A DNA stretch of 64,000 nt from an uncultured Myxococcales bacterium (GCA_903936705.1 CAIZWN010000057.1:1-64000), one strand, 5' to 3'; positions 160-6,085 are shown, numbered from the stretch's first letter. Numbers and translations: made by a program. Notes: generated by a model not told the origin, from the letters alone.

Positions 160-326
160 GCCCAACGGCTTGCACGTCACCTGCACCCACGCCCGGCCGC
201 AGGCCGGTTCGGCGCGGTCCTTGCCCGCGGCCGCCGGGCAGTCACGAGGCGTCAACAACGCTTGAGCCGCGGGACAAGGCAAGGACCGTGACGAAAGTGG
301 GCGTCCACTGCATGCTCTGGTTCGAC
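160..326 (+). other. attC site 1
   Basis: It begins with GCCCAAC, fitting the RYYYAAC box, and ends with GTTCGAC, a variant of GTTRRRY. The interior is imperfectly palindromic: GGTCCTTGCC and CCGCGGC on the left side have inverted partners on the right. It is closely similar to site 3 at 2641-2808, for example in the shared stretches CGTCACCTGCACCCACG and GAGCCGCGGGACAAGGCAAG. At 167 bp it is at the long end of known attC sizes. The cassette to its left is missing, probably cut by the IS-like repeats. Confidence 0.75.
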
Positions 327-390
327 GGCCCACCATGGCGCTTCGAATTTGTGCGCGAGTTGGACGCCGATTTGCGTAAAGAATCGCAAA

Positions 391-1506
391 CTACGGATCG
401 CTCGGACGGCGCCTCCAGCGATACGCCACCGCCATTGCTACGACCGCAAGGACGAGGACGGACATGGGTCGAGACTTCGCCTGGGCGGAGCAACTGCCGA
501 CGCTGTCACTAGCGGTGGGTTCGCTCTCGGGTTCGGCAGCCAGCGCTTCACCATCGACTCCCGCATCGTCCACCAGCGCTTCTGCCGGAGCCGCGTCCAC
601 GTCGTCGATCCCGGAGCCATCGGCTGCGGGCAGGTCGGCGTCCTGGAGCAGCGATCCATCTGCCGAATCAATCGGGACATCGTCGGGCACGTTGGCCTCC
701 GGCGACTCCTCAGGAGGTTCGGCCGGGCAGGACAGATCCACTTCAATCGGCGCTGAAAGAGGCCCCGGCAGGCCCCCCGGAATCACGACGCGCAGGGTGA
801 CCTTGTGTACCCCGGCGGCAAGGCCCGCTTCGAGCCAGTTGTCGTCCGACGGACATACTGAGAAAATTTCAAGCGGCGACTTCCAGTCGTTGAAGGGAGC
901 GGGCATTACGTGCTGCGGGTCATCCGCTTCCCCCGGGAGCGATAGCCCCCATCTGCTTCCGTCCACGAAGGCCTCGAGCGCCGCAGTCGAGTGGAAGCCG
1001 CCCAGCGTCAGTTCGGTGAGGTTCAATTGCGCAACAGCAGCCGGTACACGTGCGTTGCAGGATCCCGAGCGCGAGGTCAGGAAATCCTTGACGGACACAG
1101 ACTCCAGTCCCGCGAGAGGAGGCTTGTCGGGAAGGGTTTCCACTGGGCCGGCAGTAAAGTGCCGCGTCTGCTTGCCGGATTGGCAGTCGTTTGGTAGCAG
1201 GACGGTGACCGTGTAACGCATCCCGGGGACTAGCCCGGATAGGGGTTTCAGAAGCCGCCAACGGCCCACGACCTCCTGCCCGTAGGGAACAGCAACGCCG
1301 GCCTCATCGACCCAGGTCGGCAGGTGTTGGGTCTCCAGTGGGTAGCCGTCCCTGAGGGCTACGACGACAGCGGGAAGGTTTGACGGGACGATCGCATCTT
1401 CGGCGGGTGCGATCACATGCTCGGAGCACCCGACGGAGCATGGAAGAGCTAGCCGTGGTGAAAGAAGGGCCGCTGCCAGTGCAATGGGCAGGCACACTCG
1501 CTTCAC
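391..1506 (-). CDS. secreted protein with MYXO-CTERM-like anchor (cassette 1 cargo)
   Basis: The 371-residue product starts at GTG 1506, five bases after a GGAGG box; longer readings would run into attC site 2. Residues 1-20 are a signal peptide (basic start, Ala/Leu core) followed by a Cys-containing mature start. A 240-residue soluble part of unknown fold with several Cys follows, then an acidic Asp/Ala/Glu/Pro linker (about 262-330), then SVGSC, a hydrophobic helix and the basic stop YRWRRR. That C-terminal plan matches MYXO-CTERM sorting signals of Myxococcota. The gene lies between attC sites 1 and 2 and reads against the + orientation of its neighbour cassette, so it needs its own promoter. 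Function is unknown; a surface-displayed protein is likely. Confidence 0.7.
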   Translation of the reverse strand: MKRVCLPIALAAALLSPRLALPCSVGCSEHVIAPAEDAIVPSNLPAVVVALRDGYPLETQHLPTWVDEAGVAVPYGQEVVGRWRLLKPLSGLVPGMRYTVTVLLPNDCQSGKQTRHFTAGPVETLPDKPPLAGLESVSVKDFLTSRSGSCNARVPAAVAQLNLTELTLGGFHSTAALEAFVDGSRWGLSLPGEADDPQHVMPAPFNDWKSPLEIFSVCPSDDNWLEAGLAAGVHKVTLRVVIPGGLPGPLSAPIEVDLSCPAEPPEESPEANVPDDVPIDSADGSLLQDADLPAADGSGIDDVDAAPAEALVDDAGVDGEALAAEPESEPTASDSVGSCSAQAKSRPMSVLVLAVVAMAVAYRWRRRPSDP

Positions 1507-1593
1507 GAATTCCTCCCAACTTGCCGCGAGAATGATCCCGCTTCTTCGGGTCCGAATGCAAGCGCCGAGCGACGTTGTTGACTCTCCTTGTCC

Positions 1594-1770
1594 GTCCAAC
1601 GGCTTGCACGTCAGTGGCAAACCCCGGTGCCCGGCCCGCAGGGACGGGCATCCGGCGCGGTCCCTGCGGCCCCGCCCGCTACAGACGTTCGCCCCACTGC
1701 AGCGTGACGCAGGCGGGGCCATAGCAGGGACCGTGACGGAAGGGGTTGGTCCAATCCACGCTTGTTCGAC
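1594..1770 (+). other. attC site 2
   Basis: It begins GTCCAAC and ends GTTCGAC. The 5' part (AACGGCTTGCACGTCA) matches sites 1 and 3, while the centre has diverged (GGCCCGCAGGGACGGGC). The pair GCGGTCCCTGC / GCAGGGACCGTGAC makes an inverted repeat across the site, consistent with the folded single-strand substrate of IntI. Its end GTTCGAC is exactly complementary to the start of site 3 (GTCGAAC), and its start matches the end of site 1 at 6 of 7 positions. Confidence 0.75.
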
Positions 1771-1813
1771 AGCCCCTTCCTGCCGGGTTGACGTGGCCAA
1801 GGATTTTGGCTAT

Positions 1814-1827
1814 TGTACAAATGTACT
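1814..1827. promoter_or_regulatory. probable toxin-antitoxin operator (two TGTACA-type half-sites)
   Basis: TGTACA and TGTACT occur eight bases apart directly before the toxin gene. TGTACA is the known core recognised by YefM/Phd-family antitoxins in autoregulation, and the downstream antitoxin belongs to that superfamily. The position right at the start of the operon fits repression by the antitoxin-toxin complex. Binding is inferred. Confidence 0.5.
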
Positions 1828-1843
1828 AGTGGGCGAGGCGGCC

Positions 1844-2236
1844 TTGCAGATAGTTATCGATTCGTCAGCGATTCTGGCTGTTCTTTTGCGCGAGCCACGG
1901 CGAGAGGCCCTGATTGCCGCCACCTCATCGGCCACCTTGCTGACACCGGCATCGACCCCATGGGAGATTGGCAATGCCCTGGTCGCTGGCTGGCGCAGGA
2001 AGAGGCTGAATCAAGGGCAGATAGCCGAAGCCTGGGCGTCCTTTCAGTCGGTATCACTCAGGCTTGTCGACGTGGATGTGTCGAAGTCATTGCGCTTGGC
2101 GGTGGATCACGGTCTCTACGCTTACGACGCGTATGTTTTGGAGGCGGCGCTCGTTAGACGTGTGCCGCTCCTGACGCTGGACCAGGCGCTTGCTCGAGCC
2201 GCCGAGAAGGCAGGCGTGGCGAATCTGGAGGTTTGA
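1844..2236 (+). CDS. PIN-domain (VapC-type) ribonuclease toxin, cassette 2
   Basis: The 130-residue PIN-domain protein is likely an RNase toxin. The acidic metal-binding residues are visible: D6 (VIDSSA), E41 (WEIGNAL), D95 (YDAYVLEAA) and D113 (TLDQAL). The chosen start is TTG 1844 behind GAGG at 1835-1838, giving the usual N-terminus MQIVIDSSA; GTG 1829 would add five residues but has no ribosome site. The stop lies 2 bp before the antitoxin ATG, so the pair is translationally coupled. Toxin-first order is the reverse of most vapBC and phd-doc loci. Target RNA cannot be told from sequence. Confidence 0.85.
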   Translation: MQIVIDSSAILAVLLREPRREALIAATSSATLLTPASTPWEIGNALVAGWRRKRLNQGQIAEAWASFQSVSLRLVDVDVSKSLRLAVDHGLYAYDAYVLEAALVRRVPLLTLDQALARAAEKAGVANLEV

Positions 2237-2238
2237 CG

Positions 2239-2610
2239 ATGAAGACGTTCACCTACTCCGAAGCACGTCAGCAGTTTTCGACGCTCCTGGACGAGGCGCG
2301 CAGCGCAGGACGGGTTCAGATTCGCCGGAGGGATGGCCAACTCTTCGTGCTTCAACCTGCAAAGCAGGAACGCTCACCCTTGGATGTTCCTGGCGTGGAC
2401 GCTGGATTGGCAGAGGGAGAGAGTCATTCGTGGCTGAGGGACGAACGCGATAATTCCGCGGTTCGCCTTCTTGGCACGATCGGGCTTGAACCCGAGAAGG
2501 GAAGGAGAAAGGCAACGTCCGGCAAGCCCCACTCCGCGCGGACATCGATCACGGTCCGGCCCGCCAAGGCGACCCGCAAGACGGCCAAGCGCGCGACAAC
2601 ACGTTCCTGA
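2239..2610 (+). CDS. Phd/YefM-type antitoxin with long basic tail
   Basis: The 123-residue protein starts at ATG 2239, seven bases after GGAGG. Residues 1-60 fit the Phd/YefM fold: MKTFTYSEARQQFSTLLDEA is the typical DNA-binding N-terminus, followed by GRVQIRRRDGQLFVL. It should bind the TGTACA sites upstream and neutralise the adjacent PIN toxin. The part after residue 80 is unusual: Phd proteins usually end near 80 residues, while this one adds about 40 rich in Lys, Arg, Thr and Ser (RKATSG, KATRKTAKRATTRS), resembling a histone-like or RNA-binding tail. The gene ends 30 bp before attC site 3, as expected for a cassette gene. Confidence 0.8.
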   Translation: MKTFTYSEARQQFSTLLDEARSAGRVQIRRRDGQLFVLQPAKQERSPLDVPGVDAGLAEGESHSWLRDERDNSAVRLLGTIGLEPEKGRRKATSGKPHSARTSITVRPAKATRKTAKRATTRS

Positions 2611-2640
2611 CGACAAGCGTCGATCTATCGCCCTGGGCCT

Positions 2641-2808
2641 GTCGAACGGCTTGCGCGTCACCTGCACCCACGTCCGGCCGCAGGCCGGTTCGGCGCGCCA
2701 CTTGCCCCGCGGCGTCCGGTTAGCGACGAACCGTTGAAGGCGCTTGAGCCGCGGGACAAGGCAAGGGGCGTGACGAAAGTGGCCGTCCACTGCATGCGCT
2801 GGTTGGCC
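2641..2808 (+). other. attC site 3
   Basis: It begins GTCGAAC, the exact complement of the end of site 2, and ends GTTGGCC, the exact complement of the start of site 4. The interior shares most of its sequence with site 1, including CGGCCGCAGGCCGGTTCGGC and GAGCCGCGGGACAAGGCAAG. This site gives the clearest support that these repeats are recombined attC sites rather than ordinary intergenic repeats. Confidence 0.8.
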
Positions 2809-2859
2809 GGCCCCGCGGAGGGCGTCGCTATTGGATTCCCACAACGGGAATCGACGCCG

Positions 2860-3288
2860 TCAAACGCCCCCCCGGCCATGACTCTCGTTGATCACGAAGT
2901 CGCCACGCTGGGTGACGGCGGAGAGCAGGAGACTCAACCGACCCACGCTGGGGACGGAGCGTCCCTGCTCGTATCGAGCGTAACTGTTCAAGGAACGTGA
3001 ACCCATGCGTTGACTGACCTCGGATTGGGACAACCCACTCTTCACGCGTTGCCGACGAAGCAACAGGGCGGTCAAAGCCCCGACGTCAGGCGAACCAATC
3101 TCGAAGTAACCTTCGTCACCAGGGAAGACCTCCACGTGAAAGCCGCTCTTGTTCACGAGACTTTCGACCGCGTCCGCGATCATCTCGTAGGCTTCCTTTC
3201 GGGTACGCCCCTGCGTCACGACCCCAAGGATCGGCACGTCGATCGCCCAGTACCGACCGGCCTTCTGCACCTGGCCAGAGAATCTCAT
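2860..3288 (-). CDS. hicB: HicB antitoxin (RNase H-like fold plus XRE helix-turn-helix)
   Basis: The 142-residue antitoxin of the HicA toxin has a first half with the HicB core (RYWAIDVPILGVVTQGRTRK, EAYEMIADAVE), used to cap HicA. Residues from about 71 form a Cro/C1-type helix-turn-helix (LRRQRVKSGLSQSEVSQRMG, SYARYEQGR) that should bind the operator upstream of hicA. Its ATG overlaps the hicA stop as ATGA, so synthesis is coupled. The pair lies between attC sites 3 and 4 in the minus direction. Confidence 0.88.
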   Translation of the reverse strand: MRFSGQVQKAGRYWAIDVPILGVVTQGRTRKEAYEMIADAVESLVNKSGFHVEVFPGDEGYFEIGSPDVGALTALLLRRQRVKSGLSQSEVSQRMGSRSLNSYARYEQGRSVPSVGRLSLLLSAVTQRGDFVINESHGRGGV

Positions 3289-3464
3289 CGCTTCCTCCCT
3301 CCGGCATCCTTGAGGATGGCCTTCGCGGTCAGTTCGTTGATCTCCGCGTGCCGCGGAATCGGAATCTCACGTTCACCCTTGGCCCACACGTCATGCCTTC
3401 CGCCATGGCGGACCAACTGCCAGCCCAACTCCCGCAACACCTTCTCGAGGTCGCGCCGCTTCAC
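3285..3464 (-). CDS. hicA: HicA mRNA interferase toxin
   Basis: This 59-residue product starts MKRRDLEKVLRELGWQL, then HGGRHDVWAKG and IPIPRHAEINELTAKAI, which is the compact double-stranded-RNA-binding-like HicA fold. H24 in GGRHD is the expected catalytic histidine. The start is GTG 3464; no good ribosome site is visible before it. The order hicA-hicB with a 3-nt overlap is standard. A perfect palindrome lies 9 bp upstream of the start. Confidence 0.85.
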   Translation of the reverse strand: MKRRDLEKVLRELGWQLVRHGGRHDVWAKGEREIPIPRHAEINELTAKAILKDAGGRKR

Positions 3465-3473
3465 TGGTGAAGC

Positions 3474-3491
3474 CTACACGTTTTCGTGTAG
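3474..3491. promoter_or_regulatory. perfect palindromic operator upstream of hicAB
   Basis: CTACACG, a TTTT spacer and CGTGTAG form a perfect 7-bp inverted repeat located 9 bp before the hicA start codon. HicB has an XRE-type DNA-binding domain and HicB proteins are known to repress their own operons by binding palindromes, so this is the probable autoregulatory operator. Confidence 0.6.
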
Positions 3492-3547
3492 TCGAGCAAG
3501 TCGGACCCGGATGCACGAGAGATGGGCGCTTGCCTCTTCCCTGGTCC

Positions 3548-3720
3548 GGCCAACGGCTTGCGCGTCACCTGCACCCGCGTGCCGGCCGCGCAGCGGCCGG
3601 ACTGGCCCGGACCTTGTCCCCGCGGCCTCCCGGGAGTTCCGAAGCTTCGACAGAGTGTGAGCCGCGGGGATCAGCAAGGTCCGGGTCAGAGCGAGTGTCA
3701 GGTGGACGTGCTGGTTAGGT
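3548..3720 (+). other. attC site 4
   Basis: It begins GGCCAAC, the exact complement of the end of site 3, and ends GTTAGGT, a perfect match to GTTRRRY. The left arm keeps CAACGGCTTGCGCGTCACCTGCACCCGCG; the pair GGACCTTG / CAAGGTCC and CCCCGCGGC / GCCGCGGGG form inverted repeats in the interior. Its end predicts that the next site should begin ACCTAAC, and that heptamer occurs at 4594. Confidence 0.78.
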
Positions 3721-3772
3721 GCCCCCTTGTCCCAGTCGTCAGACCGGGCCGATGGCCCTCCAAGAGAGGTAC

Positions 3773-3826
3773 GGGTGCAGTCGTCGCGCGTCAGGACTCG
3801 GGCGAGGATGTTCGTGTCATGGGCTT
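3773..3826 (-). pseudogene. remnant of a PIN-domain (vapC) N-terminus
   Basis: On the minus strand this piece reads AHDTNILARVLTRDDC, very like the start of VapC toxins (DTN, LARxLTxDD). No start codon, antitoxin or rest of the domain follows: the frame runs into attC site 4. It looks like the debris of an earlier toxin cassette fused by deletion to cassette 4. Confidence 0.5.
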
Positions 3827-3923
3827 CATCGGCTTTGCCTCGACCGCTTGCATCGTTGACAACTTTCAGAAACGGAAGAACATTCCCTCTGGTGGATGGC
3901 ATCTTCGCCCGGGAGGATAACTC

Positions 3924-4526
3924 ATGGATGACACTCTCGGATTCATGATCCTCGGTCTTTTGGGACTGCAAGGGCTGTTCATGCGCTTTTCACCCGGATC
4001 CTTGCGAATCCAGAAACCCGATGGCGGGGCAACGGCCTGGATATACAACATCTTGAATCTGGGTTTCCTGCTGGGATTGACACCCTTGATCGCATTCTGC
4101 CTGATTGGCGGCTTTCAAGACATTCTTGAATGGGGTCAATTGCAATCCAGCGCCATCAAGCCAGTCCCATTCCAGTTCATCGGTATCGTCTGTTACGTAT
4201 CCGGTAACGGTCTGTTGTATTGGAGTCGAGTTGTCTTAGGGAAGAGTTTTCGTCTGGGCGCGGTTCCACCAAAGCAGACGGACTGTCTGGTCATTTCCGG
4301 CCCCTTCAGGCATGTTCGGCACCCCATGTATTCTGCGGTGGTGCTGATGTCATTCGGATTAAGTCTTATCCTATTCAATTGGGTTCTCTTGGTCTTCACC
4401 CTCGTTTTCCTGGCCGTCATTATTCGAATGATACCCCTTGAAGAAATACAACTGACCCTCGCCTACAATGGCGAGTATCGTTCTTACCAATCCAGAACCC
4501 GACGCCTGATACCCTGGGTTTATTGA
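3924..4526 (+). CDS. membrane methyltransferase of the isoprenylcysteine/phospholipid methyltransferase family
   Basis: The 200-residue protein has about five hydrophobic segments and the C-terminal SAM-binding signature of the ICMT/PEMT-type family: GPFRHVRHPMYS (126-137) and, near the end, EEIQL and Y..YQSRTRRLIP (174-197). It probably methylates a lipid or a membrane-bound thiol; the substrate is not predictable. ATG 3924 follows GGGAGG by seven bases. The coding sequence is visibly AT-richer than its surroundings and uses codons such as AAT, ATT and TTA more freely, which fits a cassette of foreign origin. It lies in cassette 4 after attC site 4. Confidence 0.8.
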   Translation: MDDTLGFMILGLLGLQGLFMRFSPGSLRIQKPDGGATAWIYNILNLGFLLGLTPLIAFCLIGGFQDILEWGQLQSSAIKPVPFQFIGIVCYVSGNGLLYWSRVVLGKSFRLGAVPPKQTDCLVISGPFRHVRHPMYSAVVLMSFGLSLILFNWVLLVFTLVFLAVIIRMIPLEEIQLTLAYNGEYRSYQSRTRRLIPWVY

Positions 4527-4593
4527 CTCTGTATCTTCGACCTGTTGTTGGTAGCCAGAATTTGCGAGAGCCTCGCGCATTGGCTCCGGGTGC

Positions 4594-4691
4594 ACCTAAC
4601 TACCTCTATGCCGGTCCGTAATTGTGGACTACGGGAGGGGCTTGGCTTCAGTGATTTCCTCCGGGCTGGCTGCTGGATGGGGGAGTTCAAC
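4594..4691 (+). other. candidate degenerate attC site 5
   Basis: ACCTAAC at 4594-4600 is exactly the start predicted by the end of attC site 4, and GTTCAAC at 4685-4691 could be the other end. The interior has only short inverted pairs (GGTCC / GGACT, GGAGG / CCTCC) and no similarity to sites 1-4, so the site is either of foreign type, carried in with the AT-rich cassette, or a chance match. A given heptamer is expected about once per 16 kb. Confidence 0.4.
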
Positions 4692-4751: not shown

Positions 4752-4997
4752 CTAGACCGATCGGCAAAATTGCTTGGTTATTTGCTTTGAGAACGGCTTG
4801 CCCGTGAGTGCCAAACCCCGGTGCTCGGCCCGTGTCCCCGCGGACCAGCCCGCCAGGAACGTGCGCATGAAGACTTCGTGGAGGACCAGGACAGGAACGA
4901 GGAGTTTGTTGGTGGCTTCGATCGGCTTCGCTAAGAAGGCTGCGTTTGGGCTGCCGGTGAGGTAGGCGATCCAGGCAGAGGAATCGACGACGTTCAT
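4752..4997 (-). pseudogene. VapC toxin truncated by an attC-like half site
   Basis: The first 51 residues are a PIN-domain start (MNVVDSSAWIAYLTGSPN, then VLVLHEVFMRTFLAG). The frame then runs into sequence copied from an attC left arm and ends at residue 81, so the later acidic residues of the nuclease site are absent. The start overlaps the vapB stop (TAATG). It is almost certainly inactive as a toxin. The intact gene would be about 130 residues. Confidence 0.7.
4788..4856 (+). other. half attC site (left arm only)
   Basis: The stretch GAACGGCTTGCCCGTGAGTGCCAAACCCCGGTG...CGGCCCG aligns with the left arm of attC site 2 (AACGGCTTGCACGTCAGTGG, CAAACCCCGGTGCCCGGCCCG). The right arm is missing and the sequence continues inside vapC, so a deletion joined an attC arm to the middle of a vapC gene. 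The heptamer before the arm (TGAGAAC) no longer fits RYYYAAC. Confidence 0.65.
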
Positions 4998-5203
4998 TAG
5001 CGATCCTCGTGTTCGCGGGGGTCAGAGGCATCCATGCCCTTCAGGCTTCCGCGGAGGTCACGGACGCCCTTGAGAGGGATGAGTTCGATCCGTCCGCGAT
5101 AGGCGATGGCCTGAACCCGCTGCCCTGGGCGGATCCGCAACTCTTCACGGATCGCCTTTGGGATGACGACCTGAAACTTGGTAGAGACGGTGACGGCATC
5201 CAT
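4997..5203 (-). CDS. vapB: VapB antitoxin, SpoVT/AbrB-type DNA-binding protein
   Basis: The 68-residue protein has a swapped-hairpin AbrB fold: MDAVTVSTKFQVVIPKAIRE, then LRIRPGQRVQAIAYRGRIEL. It starts at ATG 5203 after GGAGGG. Its partner VapC directly downstream is truncated, so the antitoxin is now an orphan repressor or is decaying with its toxin. Confidence 0.85.
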   Translation of the reverse strand: MDAVTVSTKFQVVIPKAIREELRIRPGQRVQAIAYRGRIELIPLKGVRDLRGSLKGMDASDPREHEDR

Positions 5204-5452: not shown

Positions 5453-6085
5453 CTACAGCAGGTCGGCTGGACTGGCGACGCCCGATGGACCACGGTTCAG
5501 AACGTGGGTATATATCTGTGTCGTTCGAACGGATCGGTGGCCCAGCAGTTCTTGTATCGTGCGGATATCGTGATTTGCCTCCAATAGATGTGTCGCGAAC
5601 GAGTGTCTGAAGGTGTGACACGACACGCGCTTCTTGATGTTTGTGGCCATCACCGCCTCGTGCACTGCCCTCTGGAGGATGGATGCATCGATGTGGTGTC
5701 GGCCCTGCTGGCTGGTTTTCGGGTTTACCCATCGCTTTTCCTGCGGAAAAACCCACTGCCAGCGCCAATCTTTTGGCGCACCTGGGTATTTTCTGTTCAG
5801 GGCGTCAGGCATCGCGACACTTCCCCAGCCGTCGGAAAGATCCTGCTGGTGCAGCTTGCGAACCCTGTTGAGATGCACGTCAAATGTCTTTTTCAATGAT
5901 TGCGGAAGCATGACGTAACGATCTCGCTGTCCTTTCCCGTCCCGAATCAGAATGGTGTTTGCCTTGAAATCAATGTCCTGTACTCGAAGCTGCAGGCACT
6001 CGGTTATTGCAAGGGATGGTGCGCCATTCGATCCTCCAGGCACGTCCATGAACAAAGGATCGAACGAATGGTCGATTCGTTTCAC
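5453..6085 (-). pseudogene. integron integrase (IntI-type tyrosine recombinase), 5'-truncated
   Basis: The readable frame gives 210 residues matching the C-terminal part of integron integrases. It contains [13 protein letters not shown], the block [13 protein letters not shown], the IntI-specific insert ([20 protein letters not shown]) that separates IntI from XerC/D, and the catalytic boxes [17 protein letters not shown] and Y in [13 protein letters not shown]. The N-terminal DNA-binding domain and the box I arginine (expected just before TECLQ, in a GxRxxE context) are not found; the sequence before it ([10 protein letters not shown]) does not match. It is therefore a remnant unable to recombine. 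Its 3' end faces the cassettes, the reverse of class 1 integrons. Confidence 0.82.

Follow-up and report, generated by a model that had tools for sequence, protein, structure and literature searches.

The window, a stretch of 64,000 nt, begins at position 1 with the end of a 70.7-kb contig in a draft MAG of an uncultured Myxococcales bacterium (96% complete, 4.85 Mb, 84 contigs). Near this end four related sites, S1 to S4, of 167, 177, 168 and 173 nt, separate unrelated small genes, as a sequence-only reading of the DNA had reported in giving a range of 167-177 nt; most of these genes form toxin-antitoxin pairs. That reading overlooked a remnant of the integron integrase gene intI at 5456-6013, attI, an attC fragment at 4788-4850 and the contig end itself; more than a bare array, the window holds that end of an integron where intI and attI lie, its integrase being broken. 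The features are listed below, the top strand of attC being the minus strand of the window for S1 to S4.

1-116 (no strand assigned): five 23-nt repeats, GTGATCGG...GGAATCC, at the contig end
160-326 (minus): S1, predicted attC, 167 nt, R'' GTCGAAC, R' GTTGGGC; chimeric, L arms mismatched
394-1506 (minus): ORF for a 371-aa protein, cassette gene
1594-1770 (minus): S2, predicted attC, 177 nt, R'' GTCGAAC, R' GTTGGAC
1838-2233 (plus): PIN-domain toxin, VapC-like (Pfam PF01850, 4.6e-11)
2236-2610 (plus): Phd/YefM antitoxin (PF02604, 8.2e-8)
2641-2808 (minus): S3, predicted attC, 168 nt, R'' GGCCAAC, R' GTTCGAC; chimeric, L arms mismatched
2860-3288 (minus): HTH antitoxin, HicB-like (HTH_31, 6.4e-8)
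3285-3464 (minus): HicA toxin (PF07927, 1.4e-13)
3548-3720 (minus): S4, predicted attC, 173 nt, R'' ACCTAAC, R' GTTGGCC
3924-4526 (plus): isoprenylcysteine/phospholipid methyltransferase-like membrane protein (PF04191, 3.7e-12; PF04140, 7.9e-9)
4594-4617 (minus): predicted attI, GGACCGGCATAGAGGTAGTTAGGT, with R box GTTAGGT, which complements the S4 R'' box ACCTAAC in the intI direction
4755-4997 (minus): truncated PIN toxin (PF01850, residues 3-43 only), between intI and attI
4788-4850 (minus): attC fragment, R' half, fused into the PIN gene; 90% identity to S2 over 41 nt
5000-5203 (minus): MazE-type antitoxin (PF04014, 2.6e-9), between intI and attI
5456-6013 (minus): intI remnant, C-terminal half of an integron integrase

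The cassette genes run both ways, neither direction being clearly preferred. The 371-aa protein has no family match in Pfam or NCBIfam, and the methyltransferase-like gene, which is the first, attI-proximal cassette, also matches NF040696 (1.1e-17, under its cut-off).

On the plus strand, S1 to S4 start with GCCCAAC, GTCCAAC, GTCGAAC and GGCCAAC and end with GTTCGAC, GTTCGAC, GTTGGCC and GTTAGGT, and the end of each site complements the start of the next, at 6 of 7 positions from S1 to S2 and at all 7 from S2 to S3 and from S3 to S4, just as had been claimed; the reverse complement of the S4 end, ACCTAAC, recurs at 4594-4600 (7/7), in the R box of attI. Over 13 adjacent pairs (4 in the window and 9 in G001, a genome of the same genus), 51 of 52 variable positions agree; shuffled controls average 28.4 and peak at 45, so that none of 20,000 shuffles reaches 51. 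In G001, which carries an eight-site array on contig C231 and three further sites on C14, the rule is kept in every adjacent pair. Such a rule is the signature of cassettes: each gene is flanked by an R' half on its left and an R'' half on its right that derive from a single excised circle. In the pairs from the window and from G001 alike, a site's R' and the R'' of its neighbour thus belong to the same cassette.

The same counts uphold the argument that cassette insertion predicts this pattern and ordinary repeats do not, and on the neighbour rule (51/52; 0/20,000) direct repeats of the REP or MITE kind were rejected. That dispersed palindromic repeats, REP or MITE-like, should separate these genes by chance is hardly credible: related sites do lie outside the array, single or paired, on contigs C5, C44, C46 and C50, but MITEs predict no match between the end of one copy and the start of the next, and neighbour complementarity, extrahelical bases, attI and the remnant of IntI are features of integrons alone. 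Repeats elsewhere in the genome had been named in advance as a sign against attC; they exist, but as singles and pairs, and the attC reading stands.

The sites were described by structure, and the covariance model, bottom-strand folding and comparison with related genomes that the sequence-only reading had proposed bore it out, in that the sites fold as attC hairpins and their type recurs among genomes of the host family. The bottom strands of S1 to S4 form long hairpins (z of -3.1, -4.7, -2.1 and -5.3, respectively; 170.2, 101, 158.9 and 150 bits with the covariance model CM R1), S1 and S3 folding worst because their L stems, which are chimeric, are mismatched. The R'' and R' boxes, L stem, bottom-strand hairpin and extrahelical bases of attC are all found, with the L stems degraded in S1 and S3; S4 has an intact L stem and two single extrahelical bases, both on the R''-L'' arm. 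Six sites, drawn from three genera, yield a consensus with 49 pairs, of which 12 show compensatory changes; the MAFFT alignment of sites was made without the short site C37a, whose middle aligned wrongly. Across 32 distinct family sites, 92.8% of cells are paired, compared with 77.4% after shuffling and 35-41% after sliding, in an alignment that was fitted to the covariance model and so favours structure, with both controls far off. Among these 32 sites, changes fall on both sides in 36 of the 49 pairs, including 5 of the 6 pairs in the side hairpin that makes a three-way junction. On this evidence S1 to S4 are attC sites, of a family whose 32 distinct members share a covarying three-way-junction hairpin.

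CM R1 finds 15 sites in the genome of the window and another 15 in G001. Within the family, 8 of 13 genomes have sites; outside it only three do, with 284 sampled in the phylum. This attC type is nearly confined to the family of the window, in keeping with the earlier proposal of a chromosomal integron array with long, host-specific attC in Myxococcota. A search of Rfam at gathering scores returned tRNA only, and no Rfam family fits the sites at that score. We dropped the three-way junction as a novelty, since branched terminal structures have already been described for the VCR sites (PMC2727003); it is a form specific to this family and no new principle. Isolated or paired attC of the same family also lie far from the intI end, at C5:142725, C44:1933, 5084 and 212653, C46:46313, and C50:19695 and 20713, and by analogy these resemble known attC clusters and singles without an integrase.

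The intI remnant scores 283.8 bits with TIGR02249 (cut-off 265) and is an integron-type tyrosine recombinase, although the gene is truncated. Its N-terminal 163 residues are absent: it matches from residue 164 of the intact 349-aa IntI of G001, with 76% identity, and while its open frame continues to 6172, it does so in unrelated sequence, homology stopping sharply near 6001-6013. The nearest solved structure is that of V. cholerae IntI4 (2a3v, E 1.1e-51). The catalytic Arg has been replaced by Ala (LAITEC, compared with LRLAEC in G001 and LRLMEC in 2a3v), so that an IntI with complete catalytic residues is not found here, and no other IntI exceeds the cut-off in the assembly, a draft MAG; because of these two observations we file the window as a decayed rather than a working integron. 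A 39-residue scrap of an IntI C terminus at G000:C5:4891-5007 is a trace of a second lost integrase.

Past the 3' end of intI lies the motif ending in GTTAGGT that we assign to attI, and motifs like it stand 3' of intI in G001 (GGTCCGTATAAAGGTAGTTGGCC) and in G002 (GGTCCGTATAGAGGTAGTTGTGC). The latter two share GGTCCGTATA(A/G)AGGTAGTT, ~240 and ~280 nt beyond the stop codon of intI, a search pattern that failed to match the window's own diverged copy. In G010, an R box GTTGGAC stands ~273 nt past intI and is followed by a cassette ending in an attC that begins GTCCAAC. The predicted attI is thus located 3' of intI, and three genomes of the genus have it at a similar position. It lies ~850 nt from intI in the window, as opposed to 240-280 nt in the intact relatives, because the MazE/PIN fragment fused to half an attC (4755-5203) sits between them.

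Direction has to be read from something other than the R boxes, which give none because they are palindromic. Extrahelical bases lie on the R''-L'' arm by definition (PMC2727003), and in S4 and in sites G010a and G004a they do so only if the site is read the way intI runs. Together with an attI 3' of intI, this makes the array co-directional with intI, and the same relation of intI to attI or attC is seen in the loci of G001, G002, G004 and G010. On these features, intI, attI and array all read from right to left in the window, an arrangement known as a 'reverse' integron, and the left-to-right direction implied by the sequence-only reading is overturned. A plus-strand array in the textbook direction, to whose far end intI lies close only by chance and in which the ACCTAAC at 4594 marks just the boundary of the last cassette, would be equally compatible with R-box complementarity, which is symmetric and cannot show direction, and with the roughly half of cassette genes that run from left to right. 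Against such an array stand the attI-like motif that three genomes of the genus have at a similar place 3' of intI, the R box in another genus, the placement of the extrahelical bases and the repeated layout of the four other loci, and we regard it as very improbable.

Gene families, site structure, attI conservation, direction and truncation, as far as sequence can establish them, point to the reverse intI-attI end of a probably sedentary chromosomal integron that has decayed in this genome, a reading to which we give a probability of about 0.92. In the ancestor, IntI would have recombined the folded attC bottom strand of circular cassettes with an attI ~250 nt downstream of the intI stop, and the newest cassette, here the methyltransferase, would have come to lie beside attI. 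A deletion would later have taken the N-terminal half of intI, and a cassette fragment would have come to its present place between intI and attI.

The array itself carries further marks of decay. In S1 and S3 the 5' arm is of one attC type (GTCACCTGCACCC, whose partner is CACCTGACAC, as in S4) and the 3' arm is of a different one (CAGTGGACGCCCAC, whose partner is GTCAGTGGC, as in G001), and the L-arm scores of S1, S2 and S3 are 7.6, 8.6 and 9.4, compared with 11.2-17.6 in G001, the sister genome with an intact IntI. Homologous recombination between sites of the array probably produced these chimeras, since crossing-over through the shared middle of two sites would yield them while preserving the R-box rule. 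Elsewhere in this genome, on contig C52 (L016), an IS21 istAB at 1947-4563 splits an attC into halves at 1658-1811 and 4594-4640. The 23-nt repeats, GTGATCGG...GGAATCC, recur at the right end of contig C37 (L017, last 150 nt); they are probably the end of a putative IS element. The left end of the window probably belongs, together with C52 and C37, to a single array that is interrupted at insertion elements.

The intI locus of G004, which belongs to another genus, shares synteny with the window in genes 5' of intI (21.3-23.3 kb), and the 5' flank of intI in the window is for this reason probably native; the 5' flank genes are also syntenic between G001 and G002, and no synteny was seen between the window and G001. 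These observations bear on whether the integron might be intact and active, its truncated intI being an assembly misjoin or a working copy lying in an unassembled gap. The draft state of the assembly, the position of the array at contig ends and the intact intI of G001 and G002 in the same genus would fit this, but the chimeric L arms of S1 and S3, the IS21-split attC and the PIN-attC fusion are decay independent of intI, and the syntenic flank also argues against a misjoin; we consider it unlikely. In the decayed integron that we favour, the cassettes are probably now fixed unless an integrase acts in trans, and present inactivity may be inferred.

To place the window within its phylum, we surveyed Myxococcota for integrases and scored the surrounding sites. 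IntI exceeds the curated cut-off in 66 of 284 sampled species, the window having the lowest score among the 66 (282 bits in this survey; the next is 311). The view that myxobacterial integrons are little known holds for the openly licensed literature, where they are sparse, and fails for genomes, where they are common. Counts of attC side and direction were made with a scorer filtered on R boxes and extrahelical bases; a plain scorer without these filters was discarded, as it matched shuffled sequence about as often as the window. In Myxococcota and some loci of other phyla, all 48 attC-like sites that lie 3' of intI and could be oriented point the same way as intI, and on the 5' side 4 of 5 are opposite, including those of G144 and G208. 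In a stricter count over 60 loci, the 3' flanks (258 kb in all) held 27 sites and the 5' flanks (363 kb) held 5. In a class 1 integron used as a control (L164), the array lies 5' of intI; the single site detected there, whose fold was read by eye, has more bulges on the opposite arm and was not passed by the automated filter.

A tree of IntI places the window's remnant within a family clade of co-directional integrases (100/99), and the canonical G144 groups weakly with class 1 IntI1 (93/62), with many loci unlabelled. G144 (L125) and G208 (L149) are Myxococcota integrons with the array 5' of intI, in the divergent textbook layout. Gemmatirosa kalamazoonensis plasmid 1, a gemmatimonad replicon of 1.1 Mb, carries a reverse integron (L165, NZ_CP007129.1 847833-866792) with 15 attC-like sites 3' of intI, all co-directional with it. 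Locus L030, titled Geobacter sp. QR_Bin.25, equals L124 (G228) in intI position, identity and flank lengths, and its name conflicts with the classification of G228 in the window's phylum.

Where direction can be read, the reverse layout is mostly the usual one in Myxococcota. It might even be the ordinary and perhaps ancestral state across Myxococcota, Nitrospirota, Omnitrophota and Gemmatimonadota, with the divergent layout, that of class 1 and of Vibrio integrons, a derived special case, but such an ancestry is doubtful, as the survey took relatives of a single IntI and a single phylum as its starting point. Were it true, models of Pc and of intI regulation would rest on a derived layout. 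The reverse layout also offers a testable case for cassette expression when intI reads into attI, and the intact G001 and the decayed window, within one genus, show how an array degrades after loss of its integrase, through chimeric attC, insertion elements and fused cassettes.

Integrons of Myxococcota are little described in the openly licensed literature, although earlier reports may exist: a 2021 list of phyla lacks them (PMC8618304), and Myxococcota attCs are named once (PMC9668308). The survey moves the phylum from hardly described to one where roughly every fourth species sampled has an integron integrase. Reverse integrons are already known from Treponema denticola, Blastopirellula marina, Chlorobium phaeobacteroides and Acinetobacter baumannii (PMC6557892, PMC3607928); to these the window adds a member from Myxococcota and a pointer to a phylum-wide pattern. 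Like them, it has an intI transcribed toward attI, in the direction of the array, and toxin-antitoxin cassettes, and its attI R box GTTAGGT is also that of T. brennaborense, where it stands ~215 nt past intI (PMC3607928). Unlike Treponema, with attC of 63-132 nt, the window's family has attC mostly of 165-178 nt with a conserved side hairpin. It differs from the known reverse integrons in its host phylum and in its truncated integrase.

The V. cholerae integron has a divergent layout. The window resembles the V. cholerae superintegron and its VCR sites in its probably sedentary array, its long attC with a branched, variable terminal structure and its extrahelical bases on the R''-L'' arm (PMC2727003), and the structure nearest to its integrase comes from that species, whereas its attC sequence is unrelated to VCR. 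It is also like the CALIN of IntegronFinder surveys (PMC9024848), being an array without a functional integrase in a genome with further isolated sites, but unlike CALIN, its array is still flanked by a recognisable intI remnant and attI.
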